Source: Mytilinidion resinicola
Lineage: Eukaryota > Ascomycota > Dothideomycetes > Mytilinidiales > Mytilinidiaceae
Direction of reading: 5' to 3'
Length of the DNA: 64,000 bases
Assembly: GCF_010093595.1 (NCBI RefSeq)
Contig: NW_022985437.1
Location: 3,122,628 to 3,186,627, forward strand
Notes under the pieces: model-generated
Databases searched by the model: none
Told to the model about the DNA's origin: nothing
The model's input: only the letters and a program-made list of their open reading frames with translations
Shown: piece by piece, positions 1,263 to 63,803 of the stretch
Layout of the letters: every line of letters begins with the position of its first letter
Numbering within the stretch: position 1 is the first letter of the stretch
Program-made: the position numbers and the translations under genes

Positions 1263-4200
1263 TCCACCGAGACCTCAGTCTTCCGCCTTGCTGACATGTG
1301 TGCTTCCAGGTTGGGTCGGGTGCGGGTAAGGAATTGGCACAGGAACTGAATTCGTTAGCAATGCGATATTCGGAATGTTTGCTGCCAACTTGCCTGCTGC
1401 TAGGTCTTTGTGCGCGTTGATTGCTCTGCTTGATGCTGCTTGATCCCTCTGCTTCATGGTGTCTGCTCCTTCTCGCTCTTTTGACGCCCTTCCCAGCGAT
1501 CATTACCCCGACGGTGCCAAAGGACAGAGAGCGATGAGCAGACCAAGATGTCAACACGCAGAGGATGCTGCTTACGAACCAGAAACACTCCATGGCAGCC
1601 AAGCACGCAGGAACAGACCAATACATTATGAGAAACGCCGAGAAGTAAGCATCCCATGAAAAGCGCTATGTGAAATGAACTGTTGCTGACACCAAAATAC
1701 TCCATCGGAGCCAGAAACGAAGAACCTCGAGAAGCCACGACCCACTCGCATCGAAACAAATGGAATATCTACCTCTTACCCTCCTGCTTGCTTACCAGCC
1801 TCCTCCCATCCCACCCACGCCGAACTCCGCCTACCCTTCGCAAGGCCATGCCACTGCCTGACGAGCCCCGACGCACTTACTAGCTCCGCAAAGGGCCGCC
1901 GAAGAGAGCGCCAACCCTGAACAAACTTCCAAAACGTGAGCGATAATGACAGTATTGAGCGTTAGCAACGAGGAAATAATGGAAACTCCTCGCCTTACCA
2001 AGCGAGGCTGATTGAGAGACCTGGAGGGGATTTGGGAGCGGAAACCTAGATGCCGTGGGATGATTCAAGTGCGGAGATGAGCGATACCCTTACCTTGGTG
2101 AGTGAAACTGCACCTACTGCTATGGACTTCGACAAGGACAGAAGCTGACGGATTGCGGATGAACATGAAAAACGACTTGAAGATTGCAACCAGAGCTACC
2201 GGAAAACACCTACGACTCAAAAAAAAAAAAAAAGCGACACTCCAAGCAGCTCAGTTCAAAACGTGAATTACAAAAAAGGTCCTACCGCTGCAAGGAAATT
2301 GATCGTTTGAGGAGGAATGAAAACCGCCAACTGCTCGAAACGGCCTACCCGTCATTGGAGAAAAAGACACCATTTGAGAGCTGAGTGGAAATTGTGGATA
2401 CCAACCTGATTGAACGAGATACTAACTGAAATCGCAGACTGGTCTAGACAATGAAAGCCCCAAGGAGAATTGCGCCAAAACCATTTACCTTTACAAGAAA
2501 ATTGAGCAGACGAGCGCGAGCGGAAAACGGCAACTTTACGAAATGACTTACCAGTGGAATTCCTCCCATCCATCATTATTGAAAAGGAACTTGAGGACAG
2601 GAAAGACTGTCGAGGAATCGAACATGAATATGGCTGGGATAAACCCGATGAGGAGTTGAGTATGAGACACCCACCTTCGCAAGATGAAAATGATATGCGA
2701 CAAGCTGACTCCGAAGTCGAAATGCCTACCTTAAGCATTGCGGACTTAACACATGGAGTGGCGTGGAATCCAAAAATCTTTATGACAGGCGCGAAGCTGA
2801 TATGAGAAATGACCTACAGTATGCACCCGAGCCGCCCATCAATAGCGAGAAAAGAACTCTAACGTAGGGAAGATTGCTGGGAGATTGGAGGCTTATCTAG
2901 CTAGGATGTGTCTGACAGGGTCGTGGGATCGAGAAACCTACCGTTCAAGGAAATGTGACGAGCGAAGAGCTGAGTATGACCGGAGAAGCCTACCTGGACA
3001 TGAGCTGATCTGCATTGCAGGCCCAAACCGGCATCGCCAGCAACAATGCGAAAAGAATGCTTGCATGCGTCGTACCTGTTCATCCCCCACCCACCCATCA
3101 GGGAAACATAGACGTTGACTTCAGAACATCTGGAAAGACGTGAATGAAAGCTAAGCAAAAGCGGAGAGACCCACCTGGGTATTGGCTGACTTGACTTGAA
3201 GACTCAAAGGAAGATACACAAGGAAATTGCAAGAGGAGGCTTACCTGGAGCCTCCCTACTCCCTTTCTTCGGGGGTGAACTGAAAGGTGCTGAAATCAAA
3301 GGATATCACATAAGGCAGAATTGAAAGCTGAGTGATAGGCGCAAGCTTTGACCTGAAGCACTCACCTCTAGCAATCACTGACTGGAGTTCCAGATTCATG
3401 ACAAGATTAGAAACGCTATCGCAAGAGAAGAACCTACCGGGACTAACATGCGCGCCTCCCGCCCACCCATCAGTGGAAGAGAAAAGGTTTCAAGCAATAG
3501 GAGATCGCAGGAAAAACGACTGGAAGCTGAGTAGAAATCGCGACACCTTGCCCCGAGTGACTGCTGACTTGACTATGTAGACTGATCTGGAATCGAAATG
3601 GAAGGAGAGGAATCAAGTTAAGACGAGGAAACCAGTAAATTGCCTACCTTTCTGAAAGATTTGATGAATTGGAGGCTGACTTGGAAGCGGACTTGGAAGC
3701 TGGCTTGGAAGCACGAACACCTACCTCGAGGAAATCCCGAGTCCACCAAAGCTGCAGCAGAAATCGAAATGCCAAAAACGAGCCGATGCCCCGAAAGTAC
3801 GTTGAACATAGGAAAGTCCTACCGTTGTTGAATGGAAGTTGACGCGCTGACAGCAGGATGCAAAGTACAGGACATTTACTGGATGACGAAGATGAGGTAG
3901 AAAGAGATTGAAGGATCTTTACCTAAGCGGCGACGATAAACGCAACTCTGAAATAGCTTACCGATAGCGAAGAGAGGATGTGAGAAAGACCAGCCTGAAA
4001 GCAGAAGCACCTACCTTGGGCAGCAGAAAGCAGGGTTCGACGGACTTGGAGATAGAAAAGGCGAGACGAGAGAACTGAATACAGGTTCGAGACTGCCTAC
4101 CTTCTTGAAAATTGAGAGATGAGGCTCCATATCCAACACAGCAGCAATGAAACTGAGGAGCACTTACCGTTCCAAAATCACTGACGAGCCAAGGCGATGC

Positions 4201-5840
4201 TGGAAAAAGACTGCGAGATGAATGAGAAGATCAAACCTTCGAAGGGGACAAGTCGGATCGGCGTGGGCAATGAAGGGAAGCTGCACCAAACCTTGAAAAA
4301 GAAAAGAAGTGGAAACCGCTGACGTTGGCATTGCCCTAGACATAGGAAATTTGCGCCAACCACCAAGATCAACATACCTTTCAAAGACTCCGAGTGGGAT
4401 GACGACGCGTATCTGAAAGACAACCTGAAAGTGAGAGGTACGGTGTGCCAAACCTGAGAAAGAGGATGAGAGCTGACTCGGCATTGCCGCGGCCATAGGA
4501 GATTCGAGCATGATTCACTCACCGTTGTGATGGAATTGAAGATCGGCCAAGACGTGCGAGAGCTGAGGCTTGTATCGAGATGCACATACCTTGAAGACAT
4601 TTTGAAGAGTAGAAAGTGGGTGAGTACAAATCTTGGATAAAAAACGAGGACTGCTGACTTACTATTGATAGTAGGAAGTGAACCCAACGGCATGATAAGA
4701 CGAAAGCTGACTCGGCATAGCCACGGACATAGGAGATCGAGGTTGGATCCACCTACCGTTGGGCGGAAATGTGAACATCGAAGAAAAATTGAGAGTTTGA
4801 TCGATATCCAACTACCTGCAAAGAATGATTGCAGATTCAAGAAGAGAGTGAGCGTACCAGTGCGAGGGTTGGGGATCAAACCTTTTGGGAAAAAAGACTG
4901 CTGACTCGGCATCGCCGGACACAATGAATGTAGAAAACCATGGATACGCACCTACCGTTAGCTGAGAAAATTTTGGAGCGACGAGGAGATAGGTCCAAAC
5001 CTTGATGGAAGAAGGAGCTTACAAGTCCGCATTGCCGAGCCTAGTAAATGCGGAGTTCCAAAATTTCCAAGAAGATGAGCCTACCGTTAGCTGAGAAAGT
5101 CTTGAGGAAATAACTAAGAGGGGACAGCACACATTTGATGAAAGCCTACCGTAGCTGAGAACAGCTTGAGTGAAACGCGGGCAGCATGCATTCGCAGAGA
5201 TGAGTGGAACCAATTTCGAAGGGCCAGTCGGGCATCGCTGACTTGGCAAGCATGGCCGTGGACATAGAAAATTTTCTACCGTTCATGAGAGACTAATAAA
5301 GCTACGAAATCACGAAGGGGCGGCGCCCTTGAGACAGAAGAGATTACCCACCGAGTGCCAAAAGGCGAATTGACTGGTACGCAAGCACAACGCAAAGAAG
5401 AAGCCTGACACGAAGAGATTACCTTGGGTTGAAACTTGAGCCTTGAAGAAGAGAACCAATCAATGCAAGAACAGAAGGTAACGAGACATAGGAGATCACA
5501 TACCAAGTGCCAAGAGGTCTCGCTGGCTTCAACACAAGGACAAGGCAGTTGACGTCTGCTGGGGACATAGGGAATTGCCTACCATTCAGAGAAATCGACG
5601 AAGAAGCGAATGGAGCGATGAAAGTAGGGCCCGCAAGAACAGATGCTGAAAGCAAGACAGATATGCAAGGGCAAAGCCCGACGGGCAAACGAGATCACTC
5701 GCCAGGTATGCGGAACTTGGAGAAGAAGCTGAACTGGGCGCAGAAGCGGAGAGCGCGGAGATTGATATCCAACACGGAAAGCCTACCTGCGGCGCGAAGA
5801 GTTGATAGCGAAACGATCGGCTCGGTGGAGAAGATCATGG

Positions 5841-6215
5841 AAACCCTACCTGTGGAGCGACGAGTTGGCTGAAGCGCGAACGAAACAGTTGTGGAGGGGG
5901 GTGAGATGAAGGAGAGCACATACCAGGTATACGAAACTTGGGAAACGAGGCTTCGCTGACGGTAGAAACGTAGAGATCGCCATCCAACTTGAGACCCTAC
6001 CTCATAAGCGAACGACAAAAAAGACCAAGCATGTAAACCCTACCTGTGGAGCGACGAATTAACTGAAGCGCGAAGAGAGTAGTTGCAAAGGCAGCTGAGA
6101 TGACGGAGAGCACATACCAAGCACAGAAAACTTGAGAAACGAGGCTTCGCTGACGGTAGAAAATGCAGAGATCGCTTCTCCAACTCGAGACCCTACCTCA
6201 TAAGCGAAGACGCAG
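5841..6215 (-). repeat. Tandem duplication of an exon-intron block, period 194 bp
   Basis: The block beginning AAACCCTACCTGTGGAGCGA at 5841 recurs at 6035, and identity continues through the 32-nt exon to the CCTCATAAGCG segment (about 6010 and 6205). The copies are clearly homologous but diverged by many substitutions and small indels, and donors and acceptors are kept. This shows how the array grew: by duplicating units with two exons and two introns. Confidence 0.8.
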
Positions 6216-6443
6216 CTGATGAGTGCCGGCAATAACGGCCAAGACCAACCATACCAAGGAGAGTGCCTACCTGGAGTTCGAAATGGACGGATTGCGGAGA
6301 AGGAAACTTCAGGAAGCGCACCCAAATGCGAAAATCCTACCTGCTCATGAATGAATCTGAATCACGACGGCAGCAATGGCAGAGGCCAGCGGGACCAAGG
6401 AGACCACTCACCAGGTATACTGAACTTGAGGACCGAAATTTGG
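5850..6443 (-). CDS. Core micro-exons of the array (alternating 32 and 19 nt)
   Basis: Predicted minus-strand exons, in transcript order, are 6412-6443 (32 nt), 6341-6356 (16 nt, 19 minus one codon), 6197-6215 (19), 6118-6149 (32), 6044-6062 (19), 5924-5955 (32) and 5850-5868 (19). Each starts after TCAG and ends at G|GTAGG, G|GTATG or G|GTGAG. Introns after 32-nt exons are 55 nt; those before them are about 47-52 nt. Read in one phase, the 32-nt exons give EASFLKFSVL, EASFPKFRIP and QISVLKFSIP, conserved as S-[FV]-[LP]-K-F. Each 32+19 pair gives 17 codons. One expected 32-nt exon near 6269-6300 lacks a clean acceptor. Branch points are weak. The exon boundaries are inference and need transcript evidence. 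Confidence 0.45.
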
Positions 6444-7849
6444 CTGACTGCGAAGAATGACATGCAGAGATCGCACTAGGACTTGGAGATCCTACCTTTG
6501 TGGGAACGAGAGTGACTGAAAAACGAGAACAGTAATGGCACAGGCCGGTGAGTCAAAAGAGATGCCCTACCCAGAGGTTCCAGATGACTGACTACAGACA
6601 TGAAATATCCAACTAACGCAGAGATGGCACTTGAGAGCGGAAACCCCACCTTCGAGCGAGCACGTGACTTGAGAAATGAGACTTCAAAATGACGGAAAGC
6701 CGGAGCGGAGAAAGGAGAACTCACAATCTTGGTATTCGGATGAGCAGAAAACGAAGGAAAGTCCAGACCCAAAACGTGAAGCGCAATAGCGAGGCTAACA
6801 TGTGACATGGGCCGATGCCCAGAAGACATACGAGATTGGAGAAGCTTACCGGCTCAGCATGGGCCAGGTCGAAGAAAGCAGACATAACGGAAGACTAGGG
6901 AGATGATGCGATGGCTAAGCCAGAATGGCGTTCAAGCGCCTACCTTGAATGCGGACACGTTTGATAGGTCGATTTCTGAGAAACATGAGACACTAACCTT
7001 GCTCAAGAAAGATGCGACATTGAAGAAACGTACGAGACCCTCACCTTTTTCCAGGAAGATCCGACGGTGATACGAGAATGAAACATGAGCCTTATCCAAA
7101 AGATATAAGGAATTGGTTACCTTGTTGAAGAAATTTGAGACTGTGGGAAGGCAACTAGGCCAACACCCCGAGGACATAGGAGATGCTTACTGTATCGAAG
7201 GAAAAAGCGACTGCACAAGAAAGATGCGGCGATAGTATCAAAAGGAGACCAAGGACGAAGCCCAGGATACACACCAGATGCTTGCCATATCCGAGATGGA
7301 TGTAAGCAGTACGAGAGTTGACCATCGGTCAATCTGGAGACAAAGGAGACGCTCACCATGCTAAGCAGAAGATGCGACGTGGATAAAAGGAGCGACAAGG
7401 GACTATGCCCAGCAGACGTATGAGATGCTCACCGTTCTTATATGAAGGCGACCTCAATGAGAGCGAAGAGCAAGGAGCAAGAAAGATTGGTTGACGCCGG
7501 AAAGACTCTCAAGAAGCACTCACCTGGTCTAGCTGCAGAGAATGATTCAACGACGACGCACAGTACGATAGACACTCACTGTTTCTGGAAAGCGACATGT
7601 AGCAAAGACTCGACGAAGAAGATTTGCCGAAAGGAGTACGGGATTGAGAAGTCGGGAGCGGACAGAACTCACGTGACTCGGGAAACGTGACTGAAGTGGG
7701 AGCATGCTCGACCGTGAAGCAAACAGACGCGAATCGAGGAGATGGAGTATTGCAAAGAGCAAAGAGAGGTACGTGACCCAGAAGACATGATGAAAGAATA
7801 TCCAACTGACACAAACCTTGCCTACCTGGGCGACAAACCACGGGACCGT

Positions 7850-8590
7850 TCAATGGTAGACACAACATGAAGCACGCCGAGCTGTGAGACAGGATGAGTA
7901 TTGCGAATTAGTGAAAGATCGAAGGCGGTGACAACTGGTGTCATCCGAAACATATCCAAGGGTAGTAGCTGACTTGCCACAGAGCTCCAAGGATCCAAGC
8001 AGTACTGGATGAGAACAGAAGTCCGATGGTGACGAACAAGCCCGCAAGTATCCGAGTTCATTGCGAAGTCCGTGGGTCCATGGTGAACGGGAGAGGCGCC
8101 AACGAAAAGACCTCGCCGACCCAGGATCAGACGAGAATGCTGAAAAGGAAAACACATACTCCACCATGACCTTGGCCATGGATGACCAAAGCCCATATCC
8201 GCGACCTGGGTGTCGAAAGCACGGCAGTGTTGGGGAGCCTTTCATACCAGCAAACGCCCACGGGGCCATTCGCAACCGCCACTGCAGGGACGCAGCAAGA
8301 CATTTCCAGGACAGCTCTGCACACTGAGTATGTATTTCATCGAAGAGGCTAGGAAGATCGAACGAGATTCGTCGAGGCGGCTCGACCGGAGAGGAAATGG
8401 GGATGAGGTCGAAAGTCAAAGACTGCAAACCAAGATTGATCAGTACGAGATGGCGAAAATGCAAGAAGTTGGAGCTTACCAAGATCAAGAGTTGTTGCAA
8501 AACTGGACCAAGCTGAAGCGGTTGTTCGAGGAAGCCCGCGACTGTATTGTCGAAGTTCGCTGACCTGCGCGTCCCGCGACATGAAAGCAC
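7850..8590 (-). other. Long open frame at the 5' side of the donor array
   Basis: The minus strand is open here for about 246 codons, with a donor-like CTTG|GTAAGC near 8478 and an acceptor-like TACTCAG near 8333. On the opposite strand, 8210-8563 encodes a very hydrophilic helix-like peptide rich in E, K, R and Q (for example YFIEEARKIER and KIDQYEMAKMQE). Either strand could be coding. Continuity with the array favours minus, peptide composition favours plus. No family was recognised. Confidence 0.25.
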
Positions 8591-12259: not shown

Positions 12260-13578
12260 TTACGGTATATGCTTCTGACTGCCCTCGATACGCCACGTCT
12301 TGCCTCCGATCTCTACCGACCCGACGCTTGGATACGGCACCCTGAACCTGAACTCCGTGAGAGGCGTCGTGAGTTTGCGCACTGGAGCGAGGATACGGCC
12401 TTCATCCGCCGCAAGCCTTTGAAGCCAGAAGTCGCTCCACCAGTCACACAACGTCAAATCAACGCAAAGAGAACGCAACCCCTGCATCCCTGCGATTACT
12501 CTCCACACACGGTGCCAATCGCGTTCATCATCAGGGCCGTCGTCGCCCTCGGCAATCGGTGCCGTCTCGAGGGAGACACTCCAGGGGGAGTACTGGAAGT
12601 TTAGCGAGCGGATTTGGTGGAGCCGCTGGGGAACGAGAAGGAGGGGGAGTTGCATAAGGGGCTCGGCGCCACGGAGGCAGAACGTGTTGCTGGTGTAAAG
12701 GAGGTCGATGGACTCGGTGTATCTGCAATGTAGCGTTAGCATATAGATGATTAGGGTTCTCCCGCGAATCTCAAAAGCTCGACGCGATGTCAAGTCTCAG
12801 TGAGCGTGATTTGAGTTGCCTTTTGACTAGCCGGCTTCCTTTCGATTGGGCTCCTCCTGAAAGTGTCAATCGAGCTTCCAACGTGTCCCTCAAGTCGTAG
12901 CACATCCGTGAGCACGTCCGTGCAGCATGTGCCCAGATTTATGAGCTAGTACTGTACTCACATTTGACGACAGATCAGCAAGAAGTGCAGTCGATTCAAG
13001 CCCAGCTTCCTCATCGTCCCGTGAACCTCCCCGCAAAGCAACCCCTCCTCAGCTACGCATTCGCAGCTGTAGAACCATCGATAGTACGACCCCACCAACC
13101 GAATTCCCGAGTCGCCAACGACGAGACGGAATATCTCTTGGCGAAGCTCAAAGGGCAGCTTATGCAGCAATGCTGACGCCACCTGCGGGTTCGGATCACC
13201 AATATTTGCTGATGTTGGCCTATACGGTTCGGGATTTCGAATGCGCGTCTGCCGCTCCCTCGCCGCCTCTTCGAATTCCTGCTCGATCGACTTTTTGCTT
13301 GCTTTCCCCCTTTTGCTAGGCGACCCGTACCCGAGGAAGCTCAAAAGATAAGCCGTCCAGCCTTCTTCTTCTTGTTTGTCTGATTCGATGCGCGGAGAGA
13401 CCGTGCTGTACTTTTCCCAGTAGTCTGCACTATTTCTTCGACCCTCATGATAGGTGACATTTTCCCAGACTGATTTGTCGGGCGGCGAGAGCTGGATGCG
13501 GCCGATGTAGTATCGTCGCTCTTCTTTAGTTAGGCCCGGATTGTTTCGTAACCAGGTAACTGCTGGTATATTGTTCAT
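12260..13578 (-). CDS. DUF7730-type protein, two exons (paralog A)
   Basis: Exon 1 is 12962-13578 and exon 2 is 12260-12722, joined across a 239-bp intron (GTGAGT donor, GCTAAC branch, TTGCAG acceptor). The splice keeps frame and gives 359 residues. An N-terminal region rich in charged residues leads to the family core: LHKLPFELRQEIFRLVVG, then LLICRQ|IYTESIDLLYTSNTF across the junction, then a VIAGMQGLRSLCVDL strand-like motif, and a C-terminal TTPLTEFRFRVPYP block. Such proteins are common in fungi, often in many copies. The LPxELR helix resembles an F-box-like start, but no biochemical role is established. GTGGCG...CACGTGA lies 117 bp upstream of the ATG. Confidence 0.8.
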
Positions 13579-13682
13579 GCCGGAGGTGGTAAAGTTGGTA
13601 GAAAAATTTGGGGTGGGATGAGGTTTTGAGCAGGCAACCTTCGTCTGGGGACCTCCGGGGGGTGGCTCGGGCGGCGCAGCAT

Positions 13683-13701
13683 GTGGCGGTGCCGCACGTG
13701 A
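13683..13701. promoter_or_regulatory. CACGTGA site upstream of paralog A
   Basis: CACGTGA at 13695-13701 is preceded by GTGGCG at 13683-13688. It lies 117 bp above the paralog A start. The same pair occurs before paralogs C and D with tighter 8-bp spacing, which supports a regulatory role for this bHLH-type E-box. Confidence 0.45.
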
Positions 13702-14058
13702 CTATTCCGACCCAGGCCCTCTTCACGACTCGGAACACGACACTCACCGCAGCAACTCCATTGCATCTATCACCCAATATTTGTTTCTTTTTTTCATAGC
13801 TAAATAACACTAGCATTGTCCCCATCCCCGGAATCTAGTGCACGTGACCATGCAGTCTCGAATTCGCCGCACCGTAGCGCGACCCCCCCAACACATCATC
13901 TGTCCTCAACGCTCCCAAGATCGCATCTGACAGTTCTTACAGAAATTCTGGGCACGCCCGTACGGGACCACGTGACTGCCCAGAGCCGCTTGCTGTGCCG
14001 CAATCTCAATGCCCTTCGTCTCTCACCTCTTGACTTCCATCTCTACATCTTCACGAAT

Positions 14059-14395
14059 ATGGCGGACCCATTCTTCCTCCTAATCGAATCCAACAGCCAA
14101 AATAGGAAGCCGCTGGAGACGATTGGAGAAAAATTCAAGCACGGGCTACGATGCACCCTTGGCATTTGCTTCTGTGTACCTTACGTGTGCATATCTTCTT
14201 GCGGTGATTTCTAGGAGAACAAGATCAAGAGAAAGCCCGGCCGGAGAGGCTGGTGTGGCACTAGCAAAGTCGGAGCTGGCAGTCGACAGAGGTCAGAGAA
14301 ACGGCCGCAGGAACGCCGAGAAGCAGCTGGCACTCATCGCGAGTTTTAGTATGAAGCACTTTTCAAGATGGATCCTCTTCTAGCTCCTCCATTGT
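14059..14395 (+). pseudogene. Truncated DUF7730-family N-terminus
   Basis: ATG GCG at 14059, 84 bp after a CACGTGA site (13969-13975), starts a frame with a hydrophobic Cys-rich stretch (LRCTLGICFCVPYVCISSC). It stops at 14212-14214. Another frame then continues with a charged segment (QRNGRRNAEKQLALIASF) resembling the QRRRKAAEDEEKQIQLAARAA linker of paralog B. No LPxELR core follows before 14770. The shared promoter site and the layout suggest a fifth family member broken by a frameshift and deletion. A short independent membrane protein is the alternative. Confidence 0.4.
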
Positions 14396-14771
14396 ACCCA
14401 CATCGCCTTGTAAGAGAGCGCAAATTGGCTATGCTGACTGGTTCAGAGGTTAAGGCGAATCACGACGTCATTGGCCGATTGCCTTGCATTAGATTTGGTG
14501 TGGTCCGACATGCAAATCTCATGTAGCTTTTTAATAGCAACGCGAAGGGCTCCAAACGGTTTCATGAGTGCCGTTGATTAATATTCCCCTCGTCATTCAG
14601 ATCTAGAGCCGCAGAAATACGACTTTGCTTTTAGGTTTCTCATGAATTCATGAAGGACCTCAAACGATGGCAACACAGATCCATAAGTTCATTTCCAAAG
14701 TCCCGAACTCAATTCGATTGCTCTAGTGCCCCTTTTGCCAGACCCATTTCGGAGCGTGGATAAGCTGCTTT

Positions 14772-15773
14772 CTATTCTAAATGGTACGCTTTCTCCCCAA
14801 CTCTCACCACTTCTTCGGACTCCCAGGGTACCCTCATTCGGAAAGACTTTAGCGGAGTAGGTAGGGCCTTGACGGGCTCAAGAATCTCAGCCTCCCAGTC
14901 AGCGTATAGCTGCACAACGGTCTCTCTTGACATCAAGGAAGAGTCCTTATCAAGCACTAAATCAACCACAAGATGCCGCAGTCCACGCAACGCAGCAACG
15001 TTCTCCCACGTCCACTTTATGGCTCGCAAATCCTTGTCTATGATGACCACTATGGTAGTAGAGAGGTCCTCAATATCCGGATTCAGAGTATATTCTATGC
15101 GGATAGACCGGATTGCTTGACGACGCTCAGCTATGACAAATGTGACTATATTAGGGAAGGGATTGCGGTAGCCTTGCTTGATGCTTACGCAAAAGGTGTT
15201 GCTAGAGTAGAGGGATTCAGCGGCCTCGGTGTAACTATGATGGACAATCAGTTTCATATGTTGGAAGGTACACAGGGTTAGCTTGTTTAGGACTTACATT
15301 TGACAGCAGGTTAGGAGAAGAAGCATTCGCAATAGGAATGGTTCCGCTCGTTGATGCTAGGCGCACGTGCAAAATGGCTCATCTACATCTGACCAGCACT
15401 CGCGGCTTCCAACCTCCTTAGTCACAAAACCCCAGACATGAATTGCCGAGCCACCCAGAGCATATTCGGAGATCTTTCGGCGGAGCTCGAGGGGTAGCTT
15501 TTGGAGAAGTGATGACTGTGACTGGCCAACTGGCATACCAATGCGTGGTGGTAGGAGGCGAGCTGCGCGAGCTGCGAGTTGGATCTGCTTTTCTTCATCT
15601 TCTGCCGCCTTCCTCCTCCTCTGGCCTGGCCATTGGTATAGAATGAAGCACGGGTAGTAGAGGAAGCTGACGATCAGCTGGAAGATTTCGGATGGACTCA
15701 TGATGGCGATGTTTTGTGAGTTGAACAAACTTACGTTCAAGCAGGACGCAAGCGGTTCAAAGTCAGACAACAT
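14772..15773 (-). pseudogene. DUF7730-type gene with in-frame stop (paralog B)
   Basis: Exon 1 is 15298-15773 (ATG at 15773 or, more likely, 15701) and exon 2 is 14772-15233. The 64-bp intron has GTAAGT, GCTAAC and CATAG. The family core is clear: LLQKLPLELRRKISEYALG, then CCQ|IYTEAAESLYSSNTF across the junction, then AALRGLRHLVVDL and a final SFRMRVPWE block. A TAG at 15357-15359 interrupts exon 1, yet the same frame continues for 20 codons to the correct donor. That is the mark of a recent nonsense mutation (or a sequencing error) rather than wrong framing. An N-terminal hydrophobic segment (IFQLIVSFLYYPCFILYQW) suggests membrane anchoring. It is divergent with paralog C. Confidence 0.75.
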
Positions 15774-15841: not shown

Positions 15842-15946
15842 CCTTCGCCACGCGCCAATTGCCCAGGCGCTGTGCCGCACGCAACCCCTCCATCACTGAT
15901 CCCGACACCTTTGCGAAAGAACCACGTCGACACAACATCTTTGACC

Positions 15947-16992
15947 ATGGGTGGGAGGAACGTCCTGAGGTCAGCAGGCGCTGCCATTTGCAATGCAGCT
16001 GGATTCTGCGTGGGTGCGTGTATAGTCATACTCGTTCTTGGCTTTATCGCCGTGAGAGACTCGCTGGAACGTCGAAAGAGAAAAAAGCAACACTGCGATC
16101 GCTTTCAGAAGCGATGCGAAGAGTTAGCTATTGTGCCCCCGTTACTCCAGCCTCGGCCACCGAGGAAGCGCAGATTGACATCGCCGTTGGTGGACGAAGC
16201 AGCCGGAGATCAGCAAACCGACGCCCAATCTGACTCGATTTTCTTTTGTAGCTTAAGTTTAGAGCTACGCATAATCGTCTACGAGATGGTGTTAACTGGC
16301 AGAATATTCCACGTCGAAATCGAGAACGAGGATCTCGACCCTCGCATGTCCGCATTCGAGTGCAGGAAACTCCGCAATCCTGTTTCCCACAGTCATCCAT
16401 GCTGGACGCATGACCACGAAGCCAAAGGTGAGCCTAACAGCCTACTCTCACTGCTTCTATGCTGCCGGCGAGCGTACGTATACCATCCCCGGAAATTCAA
16501 GCTTGATATCCTGAGTAACGGTTTCATCTGTGCAAGTATTCAGAGTCAATCAAAATCCTTTACTCCAATACGTTCGACTTTCGGGATCGAAGAGAATTTC
16601 TCAAAATACCTCGCGTACTCATACCAGCAAGATTCAACGCCATACGCTCTTTGAAGCTCGCCTACTGCATGGATGCGGACCGTACCTTTGGCGGTCAATG
16701 GGACTTCCCATTTCCGCTTTGGGAAGTCCTTGCATCGATGGAGGGACTTCGATTCGTTCACGTTACGTTCTTCATTTCTATATCTCACAAAGCATACTGG
16801 CTACGGTTTCAAGACCACTATCTGCAGCCTTTGCGAGACGCGGGCATTCGTGCATATGTAACATTGGTCATGCCGTTTCCTGATTGCCCCCCTGCAAATA
16901 TGGACACTTCCAACTTTAAGATCGTCATCCCCAAGAGCTCTATGGTGGGATTTGGAGGACTTAAAACGCCATTGCTCGGCAGCTTCATATAG
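15947..16992 (+). CDS. DUF7730-type membrane-anchored protein (paralog C)
   Basis: The start is 15947 (ACCATGG, a good fungal context). Exon 1 is 15947-16477 and exon 2 is 16537-16992. The 59-bp intron (GTATAC, GAGTAACGG, GCAAG) keeps frame and gives 328 residues. Residues 11-36 form one membrane span (GACIVILVLGFIAV), followed by a basic linker, then LSLELRIIVYEMVLTG, then CCRRAY|YSESIKILYSNTF across the junction, and ASMEGLRFVHVTFF. The alternative donor GTACGT two bases upstream would break frame. The likely topology is a short N-terminal segment, one membrane helix and a soluble family domain. Function unknown. It shares the B-C promoter. Confidence 0.75.
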
Positions 16993-32229: not shown

Positions 32230-33010
32230 GTGGCTTCAACACTTGCGGATCAAGCCTTTCGCATGCCCTTGGGGAAGAGCGTGCCCGGCCGCACGTCGGT
32301 CGTCCACGAATCGGTCGCGCCCCAGAACTCTCACTCCCGTGAGGAGATGGACTCCACGGTGGTCCGGCCCCATGACCTGGTACTCGCCGTCTTCTGCTGG
32401 TACGTCGTGATGGTCTGGCGTCAACTCTCGCGCCTCAGAACTCTCGCATCCATGAGGACATGGACTCCACGGTGGTCCCGCACATGACCTGGTACTCGCC
32501 GTCTTCCACGGGTGCGTCGTGATGGTCCGGCGTCGGCTGTCGCACCTCAGAACTCTCACTCCCACCAGGGGAGATGGGATCCGCAGTGATCTGGCCTTTC
32601 GCTCGGATTTGGGGAAGAGCGTACCCCATCGCGAGTTGGTCGTCCACGAATCCATCGTGCCGCAGGACTCCCACTTCCGCCAGGCGAGATGGGCTCCACG
32701 GTGATCTGGCTTCTTGACCTGGTGTTCGCCGTCTTCCGCGGGTGTGTCGTGACGGGCCGGCATCAGCTATCAGCTCATCTTCGTCGCCGGGGAGATTCGT
32801 CTTGGAAATGTCGATGTATCCTGGCTGTCTCGCAGACTTGCGTGCGGGACACAGTGATCTGACTGCTTGATCTGGCCTCTCAATCTAGTACTTGTCTGTC
32901 TTCGCGGACACATCGTGACGGTCCAACGTGAGCTGTCACCTCATCTTTGTCTCCAGAAAGATTCATCTTGGAAATGTCGATGTCTCCCGGCTATCTCGAA
33001 GACTCGCGTG
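32230..33010 (-). repeat. Complex tandem repeat encoding PDHHD-EDGEYQV modules
   Basis: On the minus strand, copies of PDHHD[AV]P[AV]EDGEYQVM occur near 32420 and 32530, and a variant RHDTPAEDGEHQVKKPDHRG near 32755. They alternate with GVRVLGRDRFVDDRRAAGHA-like blocks. A related ATTCRTCTTGGAAATGTCGATGT block recurs at 32795 and 32960. Frames change between copies. Likely a decayed repeat protein gene. Confidence 0.6.
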
Positions 33011-58704: not shown

Positions 58705-58960
58705 CAAGTCGATTGCAATTCAACCTTTCGTTCGCCGGTTAGCTTGTCGACTTTCACAAACGCCTTGTAGTTCACACAGCAGCGGCAACTCGATTGTAGT
58801 TCAACCTTTCTTCTCCGGCTAGCTTATCGACCTTAACAAATGCCATGTAGTCCACGGAGCAGCGGACATCGTCGATTGCAATTCGACCATTTGTTCGCCG
58901 GTCATCTTGTCGACTTTTACAAATGCCAGGTAGCCCACACAGCAGCGGACACTGTTAGGC
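58705..58960 (-). repeat. Three tandem copies of an ~82-bp module
   Basis: Copies centred on 58746, 58826 and 58909 share GTCGACTTTNACAAA and CACANAGCAGCGG. Minus-strand translation gives CCVNYKAFVKVDKLTGERKV, CSVDYMAFVKVDKLAGEE and CCVGYLAFVKVDKMTGEQMV, so the module is coding-like. The spacing of 80 and 83 bp means the frame is not kept through all three. Confidence 0.65.
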
Positions 58961-61655: not shown

Positions 61656-63803
61656 ATGCCCAGAATTCGCTGTGGGCCTAGCAAAGGCGAGAGAATACAG
61701 CAAGCTATTAACTCGTACAGAAATCATCACCATCCAAGCGCTACAGCTACCGCAAATGCGTATGCCATCCACCCACAAACCATCCTTGATCGGCTCTCTG
61801 GCAAGCGCACAACCTCACGGCTATCACACCAAAAAGATCAGAAATTAACCCTAGCTTCGGAGGCAGCAGTTGAGCGCTATTGCACAATACTAATTAAGAA
61901 TAGCTTTCCATTAAAGAAGGTTCAGATTTATTAAATTGCGCTTACAGTGTACAAGAGACAGCTGCATAAAGATAGTAAAGATAATTCTAATGCTATACTG
62001 GGTGTTAGATGGGTGGATTAGTACTTAAAACGCCATCTAAACTTCCAAATTTAATACGCCCGCTATCTGGAAATAGATAGATCTACAGCTAATAATAATA
62101 CTATAGCATATAAAAGGTTCTTTAATAAGTTAGAGAATACTCTTATAAAATATAATATTAAAGAATTGGACCTCTAGAATATAGATAAGACGGGCTATTA
62201 AATAGGCTACGTATATAATTATAAGAAAGTAACACTCTATAGCAGCTAAAAGTATTCTTTTTTATTACCTGGTAATAGAGAATAGGTTACAGAAATAGGT
62301 GCTATATCTGCTGGCGGTATTTCTATTTCCTCTTACTTTATCTTTAAGGGGAAAGTAATAACTAAGAATATAGGTATAGAAGCTTTTAATTCTGTTCTAG
62401 ATTTAGAGATTAGAGTTTCTATTAATAGTTAGAGTAATTAGTAATATACTGCTGCGTGGATTAACTATTTTAATATATAGACTTAATAAGAGGATTATTA
62501 GAAGGATATCTATAAAAATAGAAAATCCGCAGGAGAATAATATAGTTACCGGCTTCTTTTAATAGATAGCTATATTTCTTACCTTTTTCTGGAATTTATT
62601 ACTAAATATAAAGAGGCCAGGATTATCCTATTCTATTTGCCACCCTATACTACTTATAATATCCAACCGCTAGATTATTATCTTTTTTCTATCTTAAAGA
62701 AACAATATTTAGATAAGATTAATAAGTATATTAGCCTTTAGCGACGTGGTATTAACTGTATAGTGTTCCTAGAGCTCTATAGACAGATTTATAATAATAT
62801 ATACACCTTATAATATATTAAAATAAGCTTCTTAGCAGCAGGAATATAGCCTCTTAATGCCCAAAAAATTCTATAGAAATTAAAGAAGCCTAATTAATCT
62901 AAGCGCTATACAACTTAGTAAATTTAGATTGGAATGCTAGCTCTCCTTTTATCGCTAATATATCTAAAAACTCCGTTAACATAAGATAATATATCACGTT
63001 ACCGAACATTAATTTCTTATGCCTCAGCTATGCAGGCCACACGTGATGCAGCTACTAGCAAGCTATACGCTATAATTAATTCTCTATAAGCAGAACTACA
63101 GCTTGTTAATAATCGAAATTGCGAGCTTGAAACAGCTACAGCTACACAAAAATATAAGCAATTGAAAAAGAACTTAGTGCTTATAAAATCACACTATATT
63201 TCCACAACTAAAATCCGGAGAATTCTTAATACCCAGGCTGTTGCTGCAGCTAAGAAACAACACGCTAAGGAGCTTCGAGAGGCCGCCAAGTTACTTAAGA
63301 AGGAAGCTAAAATAGATAAAGATGAGAATAAGTAGAAGAGGAAGGAAGCCGTCGCCAAGCGTGTCGAATTGCGTGTGTATAAGCTAGCCAAGGAGAAAGA
63401 ATATAAAGCTATACAACGTCAACGTAAATAAGTGCAAAAGAAGTACGATAACGCTATTATAGCCGACAGCCAGAACGGCAGCTAAATTACGAAAAACGCT
63501 GTTAAGAAGCTTTATAAGGCTTTGTTAATTGCTTTAAGTGCTAATGCAATTGCTAAGATAGCCGTTGATGAAGCTATATCAGCATGGCAGCATGCCTGCG
63601 TGCATGTGGCCTCCCTACAGAACTCAACACAGAACTCAACACAGAATGCAGGGGCTGATGAGATGGAAATTGATCAATTCGATGAACAATTCGATGAACA
63701 ATTTGATGAGGAATTTGATGAGGAAATGGATGAGGAAATTGATGAGGATGGGGAAATGGATGGGAATCGCGTGCTGGAGAGTGTTGAGGAGGGCTACTAT
63801 TAA
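61656..63803 (+). pseudogene. pogo-type transposase remnant
   Basis: The ATG at 61656 opens an intact N-terminal part: SKGERIQQAINSYRNHHHPS then IHPQTILDRLSGKRTTSRLS (Psq-type HTH) and EAAVERYCTILIKNSFPLKK (CENP-B-type HTH), stopping at 61932. Downstream, interrupted by stops, are DKTGY (first DDE Asp) near 62190, LLLIDSYISYLFLEF (second Asp, normally DGHxSH) near 62555, and FYLPPYTTYNIQPLDYYLFS (third Asp) near 62640. A coiled-coil K/E/A-rich C-terminus (AKKQHAKELREAAKLLKKEA) and a repetitive acidic tail end at 63803. The order and spacing match Fot1/pogo transposases. Stops at former CAA/CAG/TGG codons make it inactive. Confidence 0.85.

Follow-up and report, generated by a model that had tools for sequence, protein, structure and literature searches.

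What does a stretch of DNA do when one of its strands carries dozens of motifs resembling a 5' splice site and the other strand does not? The question is raised by a locus of Mytilinidion resinicola (Dothideomycetes, Mytilinidiales; genome of 47.1 Mb in 44 contigs), within the 64-kb window C1:3122628-3186627, the term window denoting hereafter the whole stretch of DNA analysed. The minus strand of the locus, array 1, had been described in an initial annotation as a candidate gene assembled from dozens of micro-exons. The best reading, to which a probability of roughly 0.42 is assigned, is instead a noncoding and partly tandemly grown RNA to which many U1 particles would bind without its units being spliced one by one. 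The features on which the argument rests are the following:

2078..7832, minus strand: array 1, with 58 GGTRNG motifs resembling 5' splice sites (donors), supported by counts against shuffles, degeneracy and U1 pairing.
Minus strand, window position of the G of GT of each array 1 donor: 7825, 7523, 7432, 7356, 7274, 7044, 6943, 6849, 6649, 6570, 6495, 6411, 6340, 6321, 6270, 6254, 6196, 6117, 6043, 6000, 5923, 5849, 5786, 5582, 5503, 5351, 5149, 5084, 4955, 4951, 4857, 4756, 4589, 4522, 4377, 4167, 4100, 4014, 3961, 3822, 3724, 3647, 3466, 3437, 3365, 3244, 3174, 3094, 3090, 3075, 2993, 2941, 2729, 2674, 2551, 2348, 2285, 2093.
2001..8000, minus strand: pyrimidine-rich strand coinciding with array 1 (plus-strand purines 59-63% per 1-kb bin).

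The one-strand array is genuine. About 60 minus-strand donors had been announced, and the 58 GGTRNG motifs compare with 6.2 on average and at most 13 in 200 dinucleotide-preserving shuffles (58 versus 6.0 when repeated with 300 shuffles), an excess of about nine-fold, well above the four- to five-fold first estimated. The same shuffles yield a mean of 0.6 and a maximum of 3 for GGTAGG, which occurs 27 times, and the plus strand of the same interval stays at the chance level for both forms (9 GGTRNG versus 5.7 expected, and no GGTAGG versus 0.4). In 2-kb bins, the minus strand of the array holds 18-20 GGTRNG, and every other bin of the window, on either strand, holds at most 8; moreover, the next-best unrelated six-letter word in the array, GTCAGC, reaches 15 versus 3.3, and none comes near GGTAGG. 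The donors follow each other at a median interval of 79 bases, with 22 of the 57 intervals at 63-86, in fair agreement with the core spacing of about 75 bp originally proposed, and pyrimidines make up 61% of the donor strand.

Two further loci of the genome carry arrays of this style:

C23:190951-196900 (L032, 5.9 kb), plus strand: array 2, with 41 GGTRNG versus 5.9 on the donor strand and 15 on the other strand.
C2:883000-885150 (L010, 2.1 kb), minus strand: array 3, with 14 GGTRNG versus 2.2 on the donor strand and 1 on the other strand.

Both were recognised on reading loci fetched by whole-genome pattern hits, and it is the clustering of the matches that singles out the arrays, as the pattern totals do not surpass their controls. 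Specifically, two MGGTAGG motifs 40-70 bases apart match 90 times (control 163), and three other patterns place 10 of 22 (control 21; none at C2), 8 of 26 (control 22) and 9 of 37 (control 54) of their matches in the three arrays; the matches outside them appear by eye to be single or to lie within repeated elements. A looser pattern was uninformative (217 matches, control 626) and a stricter one matched nothing (control 1), and arrays sparser than these three may have escaped the searches. Several pattern matches also fall in a T-rich place at C3:801.7-802.0 kb. In a genome-wide search that skipped very common words, the DNA of array 1 matches nothing but itself. Set against each other, arrays 1 and 2 align weakly in one place (64% over 180 columns, E 5.6e-5) and more weakly in another (E 0.02), array 3 has no alignable sequence in common with either, and a translated search finds no gene common to the flanks. 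Array 2 also contains a five-copy repeat (L032 ~3086-3860, C23:193.1-193.9 kb) with CTTACCG and CTCACC, which are donor-like motifs on the opposite strand.

The identity of the motif is read from its variants. Were GGTAGG just any repeated word, the words differing from it by one letter would be expected at roughly similar frequencies. The variants enriched in arrays 1 and 2, respectively, are GGTAAG (6+13), GGTATG (6+4) and GGTGGG (7+3, with 1.0+1.1 expected); GGTACG has no clear rise (2+0, z 1.1), and variants changed at -1, +1 or +5 do not exceed z 2.0. Such tolerance is what a 5' splice site allows, the G at -1 being strict. When repeat copies are aligned (n about 51), identity at -1, +1, +2, +3, +4 and +5 is 98, 92, 84, 76, 76 and 88%, and 71% in the flanks. 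Moreover, by computed pairing, the motif pairs with the U1 small nuclear RNA (snRNA) of M. resinicola itself: the 5' end of the intronless U1 gene (AUACUUACCUUG, C8:97477-97621) finds 35 sites at -9 kcal/mol or lower in array 1 (mean 2.5, maximum 4 in six shuffles) and 20 in array 2 (2.3, maximum 5), with 6 and 8 sites, respectively, on the non-donor strands. The reversed U1 end is near chance on the donor strands at the same energy (6 versus 3.5 and 3 versus 2.8); on the purine-rich strands it finds 13 and 21 sites, raw counts without shuffles on strands whose composition favours the reversed end. A variant U1 tuned to the arrays was considered and rejected, given that three variant ends have no excess at -9 kcal/mol; at -7 kcal/mol, two of them are in excess in array 1 (16 versus 5.0 and 18 versus 6.8) and one in array 2 (13 versus 4.2). 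The Nrd1-type termination motif consists of GUA plus A or G, and it is ruled out because GGTGGG, GGTGAG and GGTATG are enriched too and the G at +5 is held.

The partners that a donor would need for splicing are far less evident. Array 1 is short of the branch-point motif CTRAY (5 versus 14.2, with 0.7% of 400 shuffles as low), and the looser YTRAY amounts to 17 versus 30.4 in array 1 and 24 versus 32.4 in array 2. The alternation of donors with TCAG acceptors put forward in the initial annotation is only loosely true because TCAG is not in excess in array 1 (56 versus 53.2), and what stands of it is a peak of GTCAG past the donors, considered below. CAG overall amounts to 104 versus 113.8 in array 1 and 75 versus 101.6 in array 2, and neither YAG nor CTRAC keeps a fixed distance upstream of the donors (measured for 52 and 36 donors spaced by 30 or more), with the exception of YAG in array 2. 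As to the introns of this genome, CTAAC and CTGAC occur in two whose position follows independently from the gap between segments of the actin profile; others chosen by eye also have CTRAY, although that choice leaned on the motif. Conventional-looking introns flank array 2 on both sides and precede array 1, and an intron scan inside array 2 returns no candidate.

Coding potential and RNA structure were likewise sought. Rule-based splicing of arrays 1 and 2 in 20 models leaves 14-39 stops in every frame, a count that has no shuffled control and leaves other splice choices possible. The mismatches between aligned repeat copies (1086 in 110 blocks) have no three-base rhythm, with 0.309 of the close pairs at multiples of three versus 0.321 at random (standard deviation 0.006). 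An ordinary coding gene was rejected, as the 257-amino-acid (aa) minus-strand frame has no relative at E 0.1 among 874 word-sharing candidates; the longest plus-strand frame inside array 1 measures 121 aa. Conserved small hairpins in each unit, plausible by eye, were also discarded for lack of excess (14 stem-5 hairpins versus 25.8, and 20 versus 25.6), and fold z values of +0.23 and -0.18 indicate no more structure than in shuffled sequence. No Rfam family matches at its gathering score in the 64-kb window, which has no tRNA, and plasmid records gave no match.

Part of array 1 is derived from tandem repeats, whose copies are 60-71% alike in self-comparison:

5640..6660, minus strand: tandem part, a two-donor repeat of ~150-175 bases with six copies aligned; TCAG is present in five of the six, and one copy has GCGAGT replacing the GT donor (~5699).
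4240..4860, minus strand: second repeated stretch, a GTAGG/GTGAG donor followed by TCTCCTATG and GGCNATGCCGAGTCAGC; self-match of 68% over 164 columns.

In the first repeat, the TCAG lies 16-20 bases upstream of the next donor.

The U1-binding RNA proposed above builds on what is directly observed, namely the motif excess, its strand, the 5'-splice-site degeneracy, the fit to the fungus's own U1, the branch-point shortage of array 1, the lack of codon rhythm and the two further loci. The minus strand would be a noncoding transcription unit that grew partly via tandem duplication and in which selection may have maintained the numerous 5' splice sites. The RNA, rich in pyrimidines, would offer about 58 landing sites for the U1 small nuclear ribonucleoprotein (snRNP). 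With branch points scarce and acceptors out of register, most of these sites should load U1 without finishing splicing, and the many donors, few branch points, shuffled-level structure and absent coding signal are consistent with an RNA of this kind. Its likely use would be that of a multivalent U1-binding RNA, either held at chromatin through U1 or titrating U1. If so, the locus would provide a natural fungal RNA in which U1 sites number in the dozens and matching introns are too few, hence a compact system for asking what U1 does when bound but unable to splice.

Several observations pull the other way. As part of array 1 derives from tandem repeats, 58 sites do not amount to 58 independent events, and the shuffles, which treat each copy as independent, overstate the surprise. 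The +2 variant GGGAGG is slightly high (3+3, z 3.0, arrays 1 and 2), and the segment C23:193001-194000 within array 2 has 8 donors on the opposite strand versus 3. The CTRAY shortage is clear in array 1 only, with 11 versus 14.5 in array 2 (17.7% of shuffles as low) and 3 versus 6.1 in array 3. Acceptor-like signals 48-71 nucleotides (nt) past the donors leave a spliced reading alive: taking arrays 1 and 2 together, CAG is placed as in introns, thinned at 12-47 nt (30 versus ~50) and raised at 48-71 nt (43 versus ~33), and GTCAG peaks at 48-59 nt (8 versus ~1.3). This thinning is present in both arrays and absent in array 3. Moreover, YAG is slightly up 0-7 nt upstream of the array 2 donors (21 versus 15.3), and the intron scan of array 1 returns five candidates that overlap and have three acceptors among them; four of these candidates use CTAACGGTAG.

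The placement of CAG and GTCAG speaks for the micro-exon gene of the initial annotation, in which introns of ~50-60 nt with degenerate branch points would be interleaved with exons, coding or not, of 0-35 nt. The TCAG retained in most copies of the array 1 repeat suits it as well, as do some repeat pieces that look by eye like similar peptides, a resemblance given little weight. The idea also drew on a one-strand array of 5'-splice-site-like motifs, which is upheld and recurs at two other loci of the genome. Nevertheless, it is weakened, not refuted, by TCAG at chance, by the depletion of CTRAY in array 1 in a genome whose actin-profile introns carry recognisable branch points, and by YAG and CTRAC that keep no fixed distance before the donors, bar the slight rise in array 2. 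Furthermore, an open joined frame, which a coding version would be expected to have, appears in none of the 20 models, and there is neither codon rhythm nor a protein relative of the 257-aa minus-strand frame tried. Overall, a micro-exon gene is unlikely; were each unit spliced, it would be an extreme one, in a fungal group in which, according to PMC11121469 (2024), functional microexons had not previously been described. Another alternative is that the array is a relic or a DNA-level feature, i.e., an old tandem repeat whose ancestor contained GGTAGG, or a site bound by a protein. The visible tandem ancestry and the weak match between arrays 1 and 2 speak for it. Neutral decay, however, would scatter changes across all six positions, and they are confined to +3 and +4; no other six-letter word approaches the abundance of GGTAGG, the motif is degenerate in the manner of U1 pairing, and all three arrays are consistent in their strand bias, which leaves this origin improbable.

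A further possibility differs from the U1-binding RNA mainly in its use: donors without workable branch points would stall early spliceosomes and send the transcript to RNA interference (RNAi) or heterochromatin. The donor-rich and branch-point-poor make-up, with a clear shortage in array 1 only, suits such a trap, and the genome has genes for an RNA-dependent RNA polymerase (7 matching segments) and Piwi-domain proteins (12 matching segments). RNAi genes are common in fungi, so their presence carries little weight, and nothing here links the arrays to small RNAs. As a distinct use, the trap is very doubtful, even though stalled spliceosomes on transposon transcripts are described in PMC6643885 as able to trigger small interfering RNA production in Cryptococcus. 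The likeness lies in donors that probably load without finishing splicing, and the difference is that the Cryptococcus targets described there are transposon transcripts.

Among known systems, introner-like elements have a stable secondary structure and consist of near-identical introns scattered over many genes. Neither property is found here, as array 1 matches itself only (very common words skipped), with copies 60-71% alike, and hairpins and folding do not exceed the shuffled level. The introner-like elements of Dothideomycetes treated in PMC4457414 share with the arrays the dothideomycete host, the relation to introns and the multiplied units; they differ in being introns across many genes, the array units being ~60-70% alike and restricted to three local arrays. 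Stwintrons, described in PMC9024468 as two nested introns removed by consecutive splicing, similarly have several donors in one intervening sequence, but no donor-acceptor pairing can be fixed in the array. The micro-exon genes of schistosomes resemble array 1 in having many close-set donors on one strand, and differ from it in that the array has no acceptor excess or coding signal and is depleted of branch points. A further known system is that of the U1 snRNP-tethered long noncoding RNAs, known in mammals (Yin et al. 2020, as cited in PMC12354759) and exemplified in Arabidopsis by MUSHER, for which PMC12354759 describes four putative U1 sites, an absence of detected splicing and a chromatin location that requires U1. 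Array 1 has 58 candidate sites and belongs to a fungus. Two traits of such RNAs are found in the arrays: many 5'-splice-site matches on the putatively transcribed strand (58, 41 and 14 GGTRNG versus 6.0, 5.9 and 2.2) and no coding sequence, judging from the codon rhythm, the 257-aa frame and the stop-filled models. No description of a comparable donor array was found in the open-licence PMC literature.

The genome contains 13 U1 snRNA-like loci (L048-L060, on C8, C1, C7, C15, C13, C2, C23, C16, C39 and C6; Rfam RF00003), which score from 60.5 to 28.3 bits, all below the gathering score of 69.5, with 41 of 777 candidates scored. Seven of them (L049, L050, L051, L052, L054, L056, L058) appear to be split within the recognition sequence, ATACTT/ACCTTG, by an intron of ~55 nt with a branch point; L053 and L059, with altered ends, are perhaps also split, which would make nine of 13. 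L048 is intronless and canonical, L055 is intronless with a changed end, and L057 and L060 are odd. An intron has reportedly been found in a fungal U2 gene; no report of one in a U1 gene was found in the open-licence PMC literature. A speculative and rather doubtful extension of the U1-binding reading is that at least three noncoding loci of M. resinicola are multivalent U1 sponges, branch-point-poor and with 14-58 selected 5' splice sites; in a genome in which the majority of U1-like genes apparently regain their recognition sequence only through splicing, the sponges might tie the maturation of U1 to free U1, or label loci to be silenced.

Beyond array 1, outlying donors occur at 8479, 8247 and 1998, the former two in a feature that is uncertain because an annotated plus-strand frame lies opposite:

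8247..8479, minus strand: sparse outlying donors at 8479 and 8247, with a conventional-looking intron (8479-8423) carrying CTGAT; uncertain.

The opposite frame (8210-8563, plus strand) is part of the annotated orphan protein BDZ99DRAFT_514138 of M. resinicola (174 aa), the sole match at E 0.01 among 8 candidates. Elsewhere in the window, DUF7730 matches lie on both strands, in two pieces at 12958-15293 (minus) and one piece at 15872-16654 (plus). Tandem repeats with units of 67, 112 and 83 bases, in 2.2-3.0 copies, occupy 842-1029, 32315-32564 and 58708-58951, respectively. Lastly, the G+C content of 62001-63000 is 28.5%, far lower than elsewhere in the window.

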